Part shown: positions 1-13,399 of the stretch, piece after piece
Numbering within the stretch: the stretch's first letter is position 1
Layout: each line of letters begins with the position of its first letter
DNA from: Geminocystis sp. NIES-3708
GTDB lineage: Bacteria; Cyanobacteriota; Cyanobacteriia; Cyanobacteriales; Cyanobacteriaceae
Length of the DNA: 64,000 bases
Assembly (NCBI RefSeq): GCF_001548095.1
Contig: NZ_AP014815.1
Coordinates: 2,541,656 to 2,605,655, forward strand
Direction of reading: 5' to 3'
Notes under the pieces: model-generated
What the model saw: the letters and a program-made list of their open reading frames with translations, nothing else
What the model was told of the DNA's origin: nothing
The model's database searches: none
Program-made: the position numbers and the translations under genes

Positions 1-1
1 C

Positions 2-529
2 ACAAAAGAGCTATTTCAAAGCATTATTGAATACCTTAAGTATCAAATGACAAAAGGAACGATAGCAGAAATTCGACAACGGGCAATCAAGGTTTTACAA
101 GGATGTGGAGTCGAAATGATCATTATCGATGAAGCCGATCGCTTTAAGCCGAAAACTTTTGCGGAAGTAAAGGATATATTTGATCGTCTCAATATTCCTA
201 TCGTTTTAGTTGGTACAGATCGCCTTGATACTGTAATTAAGAGAGATGAACAGGTTTATAACCGTTTCCGTAGTTGTTATCGTTTTGGAAAGTTATCAGG
301 TGCTGATTTTCAAAATACCGTCAATATATGGGAAAAGCAAGTTTTGAAACTGCTTGTAGCTTCTAATTTGACTCAGACGAAAATGCTAAAACTAATCGCA
401 GAGGCAACGGGAGGATATATCGGCTTAATGGATACAATCTTGAGGGAATCCGCCATTCGCTCTTTAAAAAGAGGATTTAATAAGATTACTTTTGAGATGC
501 TGAAAGAAGTTACACAGGAGTTCAAATAA
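2..529 (+). CDS. tnsC: TnsC-like AAA+ ATPase of type V-K CAST (5' end outside window)
   Basis: This is the C-terminal 175 residues of the transposon AAA+ regulator. TnsC polymerises on DNA and links the Cas12k-TniQ target complex to the TnsB transposase. The Walker B region reads VEMIIIDEADR, followed by the sensor-1 stretch VLVGTDRLD and the arginine-rich NRFRS segment. The reading frame is open from base 2, so the Walker A half lies upstream of the window. From memory, the sequence follows ShTnsC closely (EYLKY..TKGT; CGVEM.IIDEADR.KP). Its TAA overlaps the tniQ ATG by one base, so the two are translationally coupled. tnsB and the other transposon end should lie further upstream. No lesion is seen in the visible part. 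Confidence 0.93.
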   Translation, partial: TKELFQSIIEYLKYQMTKGTIAEIRQRAIKVLQGCGVEMIIIDEADRFKPKTFAEVKDIFDRLNIPIVLVGTDRLDTVIKRDEQVYNRFRSCYRFGKLSGADFQNTVNIWEKQVLKLLVASNLTQTKMLKLIAEATGGYIGLMDTILRESAIRSLKRGFNKITFEMLKEVTQEFK

Positions 530-1017
530 TGGATTTGCAAATTCAAAACTGGTTATTTATTCTTGTTCCTTATGAAGGTGAAAGCATTAGTCATTTTCTC
601 GGTAGATTTAGAAGGGCAAATGGCTTAAGTTGTGGTGGTTTAGGACAAGCAACGGGGTTATATTCAGCGATCGCTCGTTGGGAAAAGTTCCGTTTTAATC
701 CTTTTCCTTCCTCTGAACAGTTACAGAAGTTAAGCGCGATCGTACAAGTAGAAATGGCAACCTTACAAACGATGTTTCCTTCCGCACCGATGAAAATGTC
801 CCCGATTCGGTTATGTTCGGCTTGTTATGGTGAAAAGCCCTATCATCGGATAGAATGGCAGTATAAGGAGGTTTATAAGTGCCATCGACATAACCTTAAA
901 CTATTATCAGAATGTCCTAACTGTGGGGCAAGATTCAAGTTTCCTGCTTTATGGGTTGATGGTTGGTGCCACAGATGTTTTACTCCTTTTGCCGAGATAA
1001 TTCAACAAAAACCCTAG
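529..1017 (+). CDS. tniQ: TniQ, short V-K CAST type
   Basis: The protein has 162 residues, the length expected for V-K CAST TniQ (about 167) and far shorter than Tn7 TnsD/TniQ. The N-terminal half carries the TniQ signature YEGESISHFLGRFRRAN. The C-terminal half has zinc-finger pairs CSACYG, CHRH, CPNCGA and CHRC. TniQ bridges the Cas12k R-loop/tracrRNA complex to TnsC. The start overlaps the tnsC stop (TAATG). The gene looks intact and is the last core transposition gene before the cargo, which begins on the opposite strand three bases after its stop. Confidence 0.95.
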   Translation: MDLQIQNWLFILVPYEGESISHFLGRFRRANGLSCGGLGQATGLYSAIARWEKFRFNPFPSSEQLQKLSAIVQVEMATLQTMFPSAPMKMSPIRLCSACYGEKPYHRIEWQYKEVYKCHRHNLKLLSECPNCGARFKFPALWVDGWCHRCFTPFAEIIQQKP

Positions 1018-9540: not shown

Positions 9541-9960
9541 TCAACCCACCTTCTCTCCTAATTTTCTATGAATTTTATCTAACCATAAAGGCATGATTAC
9601 CTTCCCCTCCTCCAGAAGTGCGATCGCCTTTTCCCTTTCATAGGGTAAGAGGTGCATTTTTCCGTCTCTAGGAATAATCATAAAACGACGTTTATAGTCA
9701 GGATTGCGAAAATCTGGCTCTTTTTCTCTCAAGTCATGTAAGATAATTTGTCCTATTTCAAAGCTCAACCCCATCGAGAGCAAATACACCATGATCGATA
9801 CTTCCACCAACTCAGCAGGGGAATAATAGATAGTTTTGCCCGTACCCGAACCATGAATAAACGGAACAATAATCTCCTTATCCCTCCAATACTGCAATTG
9901 TCGAAGGGAACAACCTGTAATTAATGATGCTTCTTTACTACTAAAAAACCTTTCTTTCAT
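9541..9960 (-). CDS. cvkR: CvkR, MerR-type repressor of V-K CAST
   Basis: The MerR-like winged helix opens with FSSKEASLITGCSLRQLQYWRDKEIIVPF, then the wing GSGTGKTIYYSPAELVEVSI, a dimerisation helix and a short C-terminal domain. It lacks the metal-binding cysteines of classical MerR. It is divergent from cas12k with only about 60 bases between starts. This is the known position of CvkR, which represses cas12k and tracrRNA expression. I chose the ATG at 9960 (139 residues) because the helix-turn-helix follows at once; an ATG at 9990 would add ten residues. The next gene, hsdR, starts one base after its stop, so the repressor and the restriction cargo look co-transcribed. Confidence 0.88.
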   Translation of the reverse strand: MKERFFSSKEASLITGCSLRQLQYWRDKEIIVPFIHGSGTGKTIYYSPAELVEVSIMVYLLSMGLSFEIGQIILHDLREKEPDFRNPDYKRRFMIIPRDGKMHLLPYEREKAIALLEEGKVIMPLWLDKIHRKLGEKVG

Positions 9961-10023
9961 AAACACAATTATAAAATGATTTGCTATCATACAAATACGT
10001 TTAATAAAACATTTTTGTTAGTT
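9961..10023. promoter_or_regulatory. cvkR-cas12k divergent control region
   Basis: This AT-rich 63-base gap separates the two divergent starts. It must hold the cas12k promoter and probably the CvkR operator. A TATCAT at about 9984 could serve as a -10 box for one side. I do not see a clear palindromic operator by eye. Confidence 0.5.
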
Positions 10024-11874
10024 ATGGCTCACGTTACTATTCAATGTCGTTTGATCGCTTCTGGTGATACCCGTCAATTTCTCTGGCAGTTGATGACTGA
10101 AAAGAATACCCCCCTTATCAACGAAATTTTGTTAAGGATAAAGCAACATCCTGACTTCCCTGACTGGAGGATAAAGAAAAAATTACCTAAATATTTTTTA
10201 GCCCGACAAATAGCAGAACTCAAGAATAATTACCCCTTTGAAGGACAACCATCCCGTTTTTACGCCTCCGTTAACAAAATTATCAGCTACATTTACAAGT
10301 CATGGTTTGAAGTTCAAAAAACATTGGATTGGAAGTTACAAGGTAATGTTCGTTGGCTAGAAATGCTATTGCCTGACACTGAATTAATTAAGCATTTTGA
10401 TAATTCTCTCGAATCTTTACAACAACAAGCAACCCTGATTCTTGACTCTATAGATTCAACAGTGAATAAAGATCAAATCTCGACTATTCTTTTTGAGAAG
10501 CATGACAAGACAAAAAAGCCTGACATTAGAAGTGCGATCATATATCTACTCAAGAATGCTTGTGCTATACCCAAGAAACCAGAAACAACAGAAAAGTATC
10601 AAGATTTGAAGCGTAAAGTTGAGATTAAAATTACACGACTATAAAGACAAATTGAAAGTAGAATACCTTTGGGAAGGGATTTAAAAGGCAAAAAATGGCT
10701 TGATAGTCTCATTACTGCTTCCACTACTGTACCCATTGATTAAACTGAAGCAAATACTTGGTTTTCAATTCTCAAGCAAAATCATACATCAATTCCCTAT
10801 CCGATTCTTTATGAAACCAATGAAGATTTAAAATGGAGTCTGAATGAGAAAAATCGTCTTGCGATTCGTTTTAGTGGCTTAGGAGAGCATTATTTTCAGA
10901 TATACTGTGATAGTCGTCAACTACCTTATTTTCAAAGGTTTTATGAGGATCAGGAATTAAAAAGAGCTAGTAAAGATCAACTGTCTAGTGCTTTATTTAC
11001 CCTCCGTTCAGCTATGATCATTTGGAAAGAAGATGATGGAAAAGGGGAGTTGTGGGATAAACATAAGTTGTATTTACACTGTACTTTTGAGACTTATTGT
11101 TTGACGGCAGAAGGTACGAGTGCGATCGCTCAAGAAAAGCAGGAAGAAGTTACCAAGATCATTAATATAATGAAGGCAAAAGAAGAATTAACCGATACAC
11201 AAAAGGGTTTTATTCGCCGTAAAAATTCCACCCTAGGCAAACTCAATAATACCTTTCTTCGACCTAGTAAACCTCTTTATCAGGGCAAATCCAATATTTA
11301 TTTAGGAATAGCGATGGGATTAGAACAACCTGTTACGATTGCTATTGTTGATATAGAGACAGATAAAGTAATCACTTATCAAAATCCGAAACAACTGCTA
11401 GGAGTAGATTATCGGCTACTGAGAAGACAGAGGACAGAAAAACAGAAGTTGAGTCATCAAAGCCATAAAGCCAGAAAAAGATTTAACTTTCAGCAAAAAG
11501 GGGAGTCTAATCTGGGAGAATACATTGATCTACTTATTGCTAAAGCCATCCTCACCGTAGCTCAAGAATATCAAGTTTCAAAGATTATTATTCCTCGATT
11601 AAAGGATATGCGATCAATTACTGAAGCAAAAATTCAACTTAGGGCAGAAAAGAGAATCCCTGAATATAAGGAAGGGCAAAAGAAATATGCTCAAGATTAT
11701 CGAGTGCAAGTTCACCAATGGAGTTATGGCAGATTGATTGAGCATGTGAGGGCGATCGCCTTAAAAGTCGGCATTGTAGTGGTAGAAGCTAAACAACCAA
11801 AACAAGGCACATTTACCGAAAAAGCCTTACAACTTGTTTTGAGTAACACAGAAAAAAATCTCAAGAAAAAATAA
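10024..11874 (+). pseudogene. cas12k: Cas12k with two in-frame TAA codons
   Basis: Cas12k is the nuclease-dead RNA-guided effector that directs V-K transposition. The frame from ATG 10024 to TAA 11872 is 616 codons, near the family length of about 640. It matches ShCas12k from memory throughout: IQCRLI.., NTPLINE.., QPSRFY, YIYKSW, RWLEML, SAI.YLLKN, IP.GRDL, PLYQGKSNIYLG, YAQDYRVQVHQWSYGRLI. Two stops interrupt it, TAA at 10642-10644 (ITRL-stop-RQIESR) and TAA at 10741-10743 (VPID-stop-TEANTW), with no frameshift. Sequence on both sides and between them is still well conserved, so the lesions look recent. ATG 11014 could restart a C-terminal piece only. The degenerate RuvC region GIAMGLEQPVTIAIVD fits the inactive nuclease of the family. 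Confidence 0.9.
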
Positions 11875-11902: not shown

Positions 11903-12122
11903 AAAGTAATCGTGCCGCAGATCAAGTTGAATCAACCACTGTTCTGTGAAAAGTAAGGGGTAGTTTGCCGAGAAATCGGTTTGCTTTCTGTCCCTGATAA
12001 CTGCTCTCTCTGATGCTGCGTACTGAAAAGTGCGGAAACAAGGGGCACTCCCAGCAATAAGAGTTTAGGTGTACTAATGTAGTGGCTATCAAATTACCTC
12101 TGAGCAAGGAGGAATCCCAGTT
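11903..12122 (+). ncRNA. V-K tracrRNA copy 1 (array-matched)
   Basis: Just downstream of cas12k lies the conserved V-K tracrRNA pattern: GTGCCGCAGATCAAG, TTGCTTTCTGTCCCTG, CTGATGCTGCG, a GAAA-capped hairpin (CGTACT/AGTGCG), CACTCCCAGCAATAAG, GTAGTGGCTA, and a terminal CCTC/GAGG hairpin. The anti-repeat AATCCC at 12113-12118 pairs perfectly with GGGATT near the 3' end of the array repeats, so this copy should serve the array. The middle pairing around CACTC/GAGT is weaker than in copy 2. Confidence 0.85.
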
Positions 12123-12322: not shown

Positions 12323-12945
12323 GTTGAAATAAGAAAATACCTTCTATAGGGATTGAAAGGCGGTAGTACACCATATAACTGGAAAAAAGGAAAGTTGAAA
12401 TAAGAAAATACCTTCTATAGGGATTGAAAGATAAAAAAAAAAACTGACCAGATGTGACCAGATAAAAAGTTGAAATAAGAAAATACCTTCTATAGGGATT
12501 GAAAGTATCTCGAAGCTGGAAACTAACAAGTGCCATTTTGTTGAAATAAGAAAATACCTTCTATAGGGATTGAAAGATAAAATTCTAAGTGTGCAATCAA
12601 ATCATCCTCACTCATTGTTGAAATAAGAAAATACCTTCTATAGGGATTGAAAGTTTTTTACTCACGCTACAGCGGAGATATACGGGAGTTGAAATAAGAA
12701 AATACCTTCTATAGGGATTGAAAGAAAAATAGTAGATGACGGTGTAGTAATAGTAAGATGTTGAAATAAGAAAATACCTTCTATAGGGATTGAAAGAAAT
12801 AAATCATTTAAAAGTGCAGTAGCCGCTAAGTTAGCGTTGAAATAAGAAAATACCTTCTATAGGGATTGAAAGTAGGAGATCTTCTCTTAGATGATTTTGG
12901 AATTAAATGTTGAAATAAGAAAATACCTTCTGTCGGGTTTATAAT
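12323..12945 (+). CRISPR. Type V-K CRISPR array, 9 repeats and 8 spacers
   Basis: Eight identical 37-base repeats begin GTTGAAATAAG and end GGGATTGAAAG. They start at 12323, 12394, 12469, 12540, 12617, 12688, 12760 and 12836. A ninth at 12909 keeps only its first 23 bases (to 12931) before diverging, marking the trailer end. Spacers are 34, 38, 34, 40, 34, 35, 39 and 36 bases. The repeat 3' end GATTGAAAG is typical of V-K arrays. No cas1/cas2 is present, as usual for V-K. No spacer obviously matches elsewhere in the window. Confidence 0.98.
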
Positions 12946-13194
12946 ATTAACAGTGCCGTAGATCAAGTTTTTGTAACCTCTGTTCCATGAAAAATGAGGA
13001 GTAGTTTACTTTTTACTAAAAGTTTGCTTTCTGCTCCTGCTAACTACTTGCCCTGATGCTGTCTATCTGCGGATAGAGAAACTAGGTGCACTCCCAGCAA
13101 TAAGGGTGCAGATGTACTGCTATAGCGGTTAGTAAATCACTTCCGATCAAGGAAGAATTCTCTTGGAGAATTGAAAGCGAGTCTCTCCACGCCC
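12946..13194 (+). ncRNA. tracrRNA copy 2 fused to a homing guide (natural single-guide RNA)
   Basis: The start ATATTAACAGTGCCG is close to the 5' end of known V-K tracrRNA. The core elements of copy 1 recur: TTTGCTTTCTG, CCTGATGCTG, hairpin TCTATC/GGATAGA, GTGCACTCCCAGCAATAAGG, GTACTGCTATAGCGG, and hairpin CTTCC/GGAAG. Instead of ending at the anti-repeat, it continues: AATTCTC (13156-13162), triloop TTG, GAGAATT (13166-13172), then the repeat end GAAAG (13173-13177) and a 17-base spacer at 13178-13194. The seven-base stem and GAAAG handle match the layout of engineered Cas12k sgRNAs. The spacer matches the neighbouring tRNA-Arg gene with one mismatch. The ninth repeat of the array runs directly into its 5' side. 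Boundaries are estimated. Confidence 0.85.
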
Positions 13195-13200
13195 AATTAG

Positions 13201-13284
13201 ATGACACTAATTTGTTATCACGTCATTTAATTTGTTAAGACGACACTAATCTGTTACTGATGACAAATAATTTGTCACTGTACA
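13201..13284. mobile_element. Array-side terminus of the V-K CAST with TnsB-site repeats
   Basis: Four degenerate copies of a GACA/GTCA..AATTTGTTA motif repeat about every 20 bases (from 13203, 13222, 13242 and 13262). They end with TTTGTCACTGTACA at 13271-13284. Read outside-in, the terminus is TGTACAGTGACAAATTA, the end sequence of V-K CASTs. Bases 13285-13289 (CAAGT) would be the 5-bp target duplication; its partner copy lies beyond the other end, outside the window. Confidence 0.9.
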
Positions 13285-13325: not shown

Positions 13326-13399
13326 CGGGCGTGGAGGGACTCGAACCCCCGACCTGCTGATCCGTAGTCAGCCGCTCTAATCCACTAAGCTACACACCC
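13326..13399 (-). tRNA. tRNA-Arg(ACG), CAST attachment gene
   Basis: The minus strand folds into a full cloverleaf: acceptor GGGTGTG/CACGCCC, D stem GCTT/GAGC, anticodon stem GCTGA/TCAGC around loop CTACGGA (anticodon ACG), T arm GGGGG-TTCGAGT-CCCTC, and G at 73. CCA is not encoded. The transposon sits about 40 bases beyond its 3' end, so the tRNA stays intact. Confidence 0.95.
13327..13346 (-). other. Homing protospacer and PAM in tRNA-Arg
   Basis: On the minus strand GTT (13346-13344) precedes CGAGTCCCTCCACGCCC (13343-13327). The PAM fits the Cas12k GTN preference. The 17-base target equals the homing spacer except C versus T at position 7. The distance from PAM to the transposon terminus at 13284 is 60 bp, inside the 60-66 bp window known for V-K insertion. 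Confidence 0.9.

Follow-up and report, generated by a model that had tools for sequence, protein, structure and literature searches.

The window, by which we mean the whole 64,000-nucleotide stretch of Geminocystis sp. NIES-3708 (genome G000, 4.04 Mb) that was analysed, contains the CRISPR-side portion of a type V-K transposon of 16,845 bp, which runs from L008:8096, upstream of the window, to window position 13284 and adjoins a tRNA-Arg gene. In order, the element comprises a split tnsB, tnsC, tniQ, type I restriction-modification cargo (N6_Mtase and Methylase_S), a CvkR-like gene and cas12k, followed by an ordinary tracrRNA (tracr1), an eight-repeat CRISPR array, the fused unit that is our subject here and the tRNA-side end. 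The tnsB pieces (L008 8390-9184 and 10443-11348) lie upstream of the window and are split by an insertion sequence (L008:9291-10442); an open reading frame between them gives a weak DDE_Tnp_1 match, below the cut-off. The window opens with the 3′ part of tnsC and the complete tniQ (1-1017, forward strand; TniB and TniQ Pfam matches). The CvkR-like MerR regulator (9541-9990, reverse strand; MerR_1 Pfam match) adjoins the start of cas12k, where cvkR has been placed before (PMC9938897). The cas12k frame (10024-11874, forward strand) is 87% identical to the intact Cas12k of genome G145, its 3′ piece scores above the NCBIfam Cas12k cut-off, and it is broken by two in-frame TAA codons (10642-10644 and 10741-10743). 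Because of these stops and the insertion sequence inside tnsB, the window copy is probably inactive by itself, being either dead or dependent on help in trans.

Behind cas12k, all on the forward strand, lie tracr1 (11912-12121; antirepeat AATCCC), recognised from repeat families D2-D4 and from alignments, the array of eight identical 37-nt repeats (12323-12872) and a degenerate ninth repeat (12909-12945) that retains 31 of 37 positions. The fused unit follows, and the element closes with a transposon end (13195-13284, forward strand) marked by repeated motifs and a terminal TGTACA; its direct repeats, D5 and D6, are presumably TnsB sites. The tRNA-Arg(ACG) gene that serves as home site occupies 13326-13399 on the reverse strand, with a protospacer at 13327-13343 and a GTT PAM at 13344-13346. 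This side of the element, with the CRISPR array and the tRNA gene, is named the left end in PMC9938897.

Anatomy and candidate promoter of the fused unit

The first-pass annotation had described the degraded last repeat as leading into a second tracrRNA that does not stop at its antirepeat, and the letters agree on both counts. The ninth repeat ends at 12945 and the second tracrRNA (tracr2; 12953-13162, forward strand), 72% identical to tracr1, begins at 12953 and runs through the antirepeat AATTCTC (13156-13162). A TTG loop (13163-13165) links the antirepeat to a repeat remnant, GAGAATTGAAAG (13166-13177), with which it pairs, so that the hairpin AATTCTC-TTG-GAGAATT spans 13156-13172 and is followed by GAAAG (13173-13177) and a 17-nt homing spacer (13178-13194), all on the same strand. 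Scaffold and guide are therefore contained in one DNA unit with the antirepeat:repeat helix present as a hairpin, which is the composition of a natural single-guide RNA.

The spacer matches the tRNA-Arg(ACG) gene at 16 of 17 positions beside a GGTT PAM that lies 59 bp from the transposon end at 13284. Allowing up to three mismatches, it matches nothing in the 64-kb window but itself and the tRNA gene, against 0.02 for shuffled spacers. Layout, spacer target, PAM, distance and helix all agree with the proposal that a tracrRNA is here joined in cis to a guide for the home site. The folding energy of the single sequence lends no support: over the whole span it is unremarkable (z −1.47, equalled by 19 of 200 shuffles), so it is homology, conservation and covariation that carry the case for the unit.

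The last six bases of the dead repeat, TATAAT (12940-12945, forward strand), form a candidate −10 box for the fused guide. Such a box stands 13 bases before GTGCCG in all seven copies of the unit that are not directly behind cas12k, reading TATAAT in six and TATAGT in one; among the five tracr1 copies the match to a −10 box is 4 or 5 of 6, at differing spacings. The −10 box is absent from the output of a generic sigma-70 scan, which returned no fitting −35 element either.

Distribution, pairing and origin of the unit

When the window unit was searched against 386 genomes of the phylum, 17 gave a match, and the match extended through the hairpin only in members of the window's own family, the kin of Geminocystis. 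One congener, G392, is identical to Geminocystis sp. GBBB08 across 600 compared bases. Complete units number nine, spread over three genera and found in 6 of the 15 family genomes searched; these six are all of the family genomes with any tracrRNA match. In each of the nine, tracr2 leads straight into the repeat remnant and both CTTTC and GAAAG are kept, and the stem and its spacing are constant. Five units are accompanied by tracr1 (the window, G187, G145, G392 and G056b), with 8, 2, 5, 2 and 0 good array repeats, respectively; one degenerate repeat is added in the window and in G187, and the two repeats of G056b are both degenerate. The G056c and G109 units lie directly behind cas12k, with no array repeat found, and are the sole guide unit remaining beside that gene. 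At the last two units, those of a second G000 element at tRNA-Asp and of a remnant in G056 (G056a), Cas12k was not found beside the unit. The idea that G056a (L063) is a minimal element was rejected, since it proved to be a remnant next to an insertion sequence.

Most copies lie in damaged elements, which bears on whether the unit is merely a decaying deletion remnant between a tracrRNA and a homing guide, now without function. Such decay would fit the state of Cas12k, which stays open in just three elements out of nine (G145, G056b and G056c) and carries stops or frame breaks in four (the window, G187, G392 and G109), as well as the interrupted tnsB of the window and three remnants that retain only the 3′ part of the unit (L069, L071 and L074), with spacers matching at 15, 16 and 17 of 17 positions. 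We nevertheless regard it as very unlikely, given the single old origin of the unit and the retention of its −10 box, hairpin and matching spacers across three genera. Moreover, the complete element of G145 carries the unit beside an entirely open set of Cas12k (616 aa), TnsB (565 aa), TnsC (275 aa) and TniQ (160 aa), of which Cas12k scores 832 bits against the NCBIfam Cas12k model (cut-off 150) and matches the solved ShCas12k chains. A further family genome, G387, has an open Cas12k whose tracrRNA has been cut off by a deletion.

The hairpin is paired in 62 of 63 cells across the nine copies. Among these copies alone the changes in the hairpin are one-sided, and covariation emerges from comparison with two-RNA systems, for which we assembled 14 pairs: four of tracr1 with array repeats, three of a third kind of tracrRNA with its homing remnant and seven of ordinary V-K tracrRNAs with theirs (L084, in which no antirepeat was recognised, was left out). 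In the combined set pairing holds in 158 of 161 cells, and at pairs 3 to 7 differing standard pairs occur with both sides changed; the fused helix departs from tracr1:array in both strands of pairs 4 and 6. As it covaries against the two-RNA guides of V-K systems, we take the hairpin to be the antirepeat:repeat helix moved into cis.

Since tracr1 pairs well with array repeats (−9.1 to −10.5 kcal/mol) and weakly with the homing remnant (−4.2 to −5.4 kcal/mol), joining the remnant in cis to a dedicated tracrRNA makes sense. Placed in trans, tracr2 pairs only slightly better with its own remnant (−4.6 to −6.4 kcal/mol) than with array repeats (−4.7 to −5.0 kcal/mol), and 6.33 of 7 positions pair between tracr2 and array remnants, which means that the homing guide need not have tracr2 to itself. 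This capacity to pair with array repeats would suit a model in which one precursor is always cut in the loop, so that tracr2 would work with a short homing crRNA in the usual two-part manner and their joining would be mere adjacency. Processing has a precedent in Anabaena, where the ordinary tracrRNA and the array share one start site and their joint precursor is processed (PMC9938897). Obligate cutting is unlikely in our estimation: it sits poorly with a stem and spacing held constant in nine copies, and the cut guide would pair with tracr2 at only the −4.6 to −6.4 kcal/mol given above, well short of tracr1:array.

In a tree of the tracrRNAs, the tracr2 rows form one clade (support 100/99, and 98/99 on the 3′ part) that is sister to the five tracr1 rows (81/83 and 92/90), and tracr1 and tracr2 together stand apart from the three tracrRNAs of the third kind and five from other families, one row of the tree (o_G385) being poorly trimmed and long. 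The tracrRNA of G056c is identical to the tracr1 of its own genome over the first 45 columns and tracr2-like thereafter. That of G109 makes a similar switch when compared with the tracr1 of G187, no tracr1 having been found in G109 itself. As the 60 bases upstream of both units are also those of the tracr1 compared, it is likely, judging from these sequences, that recombination between tracr1 and tracr2 deleted the array in G056c and in G109.

Home sites and transposon ends

In eight of the nine copies the spacer, carried behind a GAAAG remnant and 17 nt long as in a homing guide, matches neighbouring tRNA sequence: at 17 of 17 positions in two, 16 in five and 13 in one (G109). The PAM is GTT in all eight, and in seven of them the distance from PAM to transposon end is 51-63 bp; in G392 the end lies 114 bp from the PAM. 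Seven of the neighbours are called by ARAGORN and represent five different tRNA genes (Arg-ACG twice, Asp-GTC, Leu-GAG twice, Arg-TCT and Leu-TAG), and the eighth, in G392, is a tRNA-Arg(TCT)-like stretch that received no ARAGORN call. The ninth copy, G056b, is away from a tRNA gene and its best spacer match is 10 of 17. The transposon end of G109 reads TGTATA. At the four elements compared by eye (L008:8096/window 13284, L060, L061 and L005) no matching 5-bp target duplication was seen.

Five spacers (window, at 13184; L002, L009, L012 and L068) have a single mismatch each, with T in the spacer against C in the target at position 7 or 15; the resulting pair would be a U:G wobble. Among ten ordinary V-K loci, six spacers are perfect and four have one mismatch, one of these being T for C at position 15.

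A rival role for this RNA, other than homing, would be to direct Cas12k to the tRNA gene so as to mark it or shut it down, or to keep out a further insertion. A Cas9 precedent exists in Streptococcus, where tracr-L, a long tracrRNA that is a natural single guide, represses the cas promoter through 9 bp (PMC8730458), and Cas12k does not cut (PMC11656645). The target gene is intact after insertion in seven cases, and the five spacers with a C-to-T mismatch can also be read in this sense. We consider silencing extremely improbable, however, because the PAM-to-end spacing suits insertion and ordinary V-K homing guides occupy the same place; the best match of the window spacer in the cas12k and cvkR promoter region is 9 of 17, so that targeting of the element's own cas promoter, as by tracr-L, is not seen here.

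The second G000 element measures 5,672 bp between its ends, and its unit is aimed at tRNA-Asp (16 of 17). It encodes a MerR protein, two C-5 methylases and a BpuJI-like nuclease, its TnsB start runs into its TniQ end, and TnsC and Cas12k were not found in it. The L064 element of G056 has similar cargo together with open Cas12k, TnsC and TniQ, and the start of its TnsB may be frame-shifted. We can tentatively picture the fused guide as a portable homing signal, independent of the array and tracr1, that permits loss of the array (apparently twice) and homing in trans, by the Cas12k and Tns proteins of a sister element, of elements that have two ends and a fused guide but lack their own machinery, such as this one; we rate this as possible but rather doubtful.

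A separate observation concerns G056 (L064, L025), in which an element with a fused guide and open Cas12k, TnsC and TniQ is not at a tRNA gene, as if another guide had brought it there.

Relation to known guides and proposed mechanism

Delocalized crRNAs of V-K systems consist of a truncated repeat and a 17-nt anchor spacer (PMC9938897, PMC11656645, PMC12719977), and the fused unit resembles them in its place on the CRISPR side, its GAAAG and 17-nt spacer, its tRNA target, a GTN PAM and the distance to the transposon end. It differs in that their remnant stands alone, apart from a tracrRNA acting in trans, whereas here a dedicated tracr2 is attached and the helix has changed on both strands. 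ShCAST works with a single-guide RNA, and the heteroduplex in its complex is 17 bp long, the length of the spacer in the fused unit (PMC9876797). With tracr-L the unit shares the property of being a natural form of tracrRNA in a single-guide role; unlike tracr-L, it carries a remnant and a 17-nt spacer after the antirepeat, has a tRNA target and would serve a transposition effector. The engineered ShCAST sgRNA runs in the order tracrRNA, antirepeat, small loop, repeat 3′ end and spacer. The fused unit has the same order of parts, but it is a product of nature, its loop has 3 nt, its stem is rich in A+T and its target is a tRNA gene. The omega RNA of TnpB likewise combines scaffold and guide on one RNA (PMC10097598). 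It is a one-RNA guide like the fused unit, with a different effector. To our knowledge there is no sign of tracrRNA duplication in omega RNA.

Most probably, the span represents a natural Cas12k single-guide RNA used in homing. Support comes from its anatomy, its conservation, the covariation of its helix, the matching targets and the recombination-marked tracrRNAs that lack an array; the RNA would be a single uncut transcript, bound by Cas12k and employed for homing. We propose that these V-K transposons acquired their second tracrRNA by an old duplication, and that a 3-nt loop came to link its antirepeat with the homing guide's repeat remnant. Transcription would probably proceed from the unit's own −10 box, which in the window lies in the dead last repeat, and would start near 12950. 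As the cis hairpin would stand in for the tracrRNA:crRNA duplex, neither crRNA processing nor pairing in trans would be needed for Cas12k to load a tRNA-directed guide. Cas12k would then bind the tRNA gene in its 3′ part, TniQ, TnsC and TnsB would insert the element ∼60 bp past the PAM, and the array with its ordinary tracrRNA would be kept for other targets.

This arrangement points to tracrRNA duplication and joining as a likely way in which a Cas12 guide made of two RNAs became a single RNA in nature, and suggests how one transposon could hold separate sets of guides for homing and for spreading. For integration tools it offers a compact, evolved single guide whose loop is 3 nt long and whose hairpin is short and A+T-rich. 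Homing and array loss in V-K elements also become directly testable questions. In the literature searched, which besides the papers cited above included PMC11406308, PMC8649781 and PMC10293859 and was drawn on in excerpt, with Saito 2021 and Hsieh & Peters 2021 outside its coverage, no report turned up of a V-K homing guide attached to a tracrRNA; the arrangement may already be mentioned in earlier papers.

Outside the window's family the search of other V-K transposons gave a different picture from the nine family units. Ten of 13 further V-K loci that have a tRNA gene show a clear homing guide (16 or 17 of 17), in every case behind an ordinary truncated repeat. Only 44 to 211 bases separate the remnant from the preceding repeat in these ten, none of which has room for a tracrRNA of ∼206 bases plus a spacer. 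No clear homing guide was identified at the other three (L089, L093 and L095). A generic fusion pattern (an antirepeat core, 4-34 bases and TTGAAAG) hit 44 of 386 cyanobacterial genomes, against about 22 for the reversed control, and of 30 pattern loci examined only that of the window has all four tracrRNA motifs; this is a weak pattern that misses the core variants in G187, G145, G392, G109 and G056, and thus most family copies. The window sequence 12946-13177 had no match among plasmid records, nor did the hairpin pattern have an exact match in IMG/VR.

Cas12k-like proteins occur in 99 of 388 genomes of the order, and 30 of their loci were examined, five being flagged as fused. The negatives are soft, as the antirepeat pattern recognised no tracrRNA in 12 of the 30 and L112 (G392) ends before its unit. 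Four of the flagged loci are copies from the window's family. The fifth, L120 in G450, of another family, was rejected as a homing fusion: its tracrRNA is joined to the first array repeat instead. On the reverse strand of the last 1500 bases of L120, the antirepeat AATCCAT is followed after ∼20 bases by the 3′ end of that repeat, ATGGGTTGAAAG. This is a separate fusion, to an array spacer, and the locus's own tRNA-Thr homing guide is ordinary by eye.

G000 also contains a third V-K element, at tRNA-Val (L007:12783-14609), with an open Cas12k of 608 aa; its antirepeat pairs at 7 of 7 positions with its own homing remnant, and two repeats of a different CRISPR type, identified by eye, lie in between.
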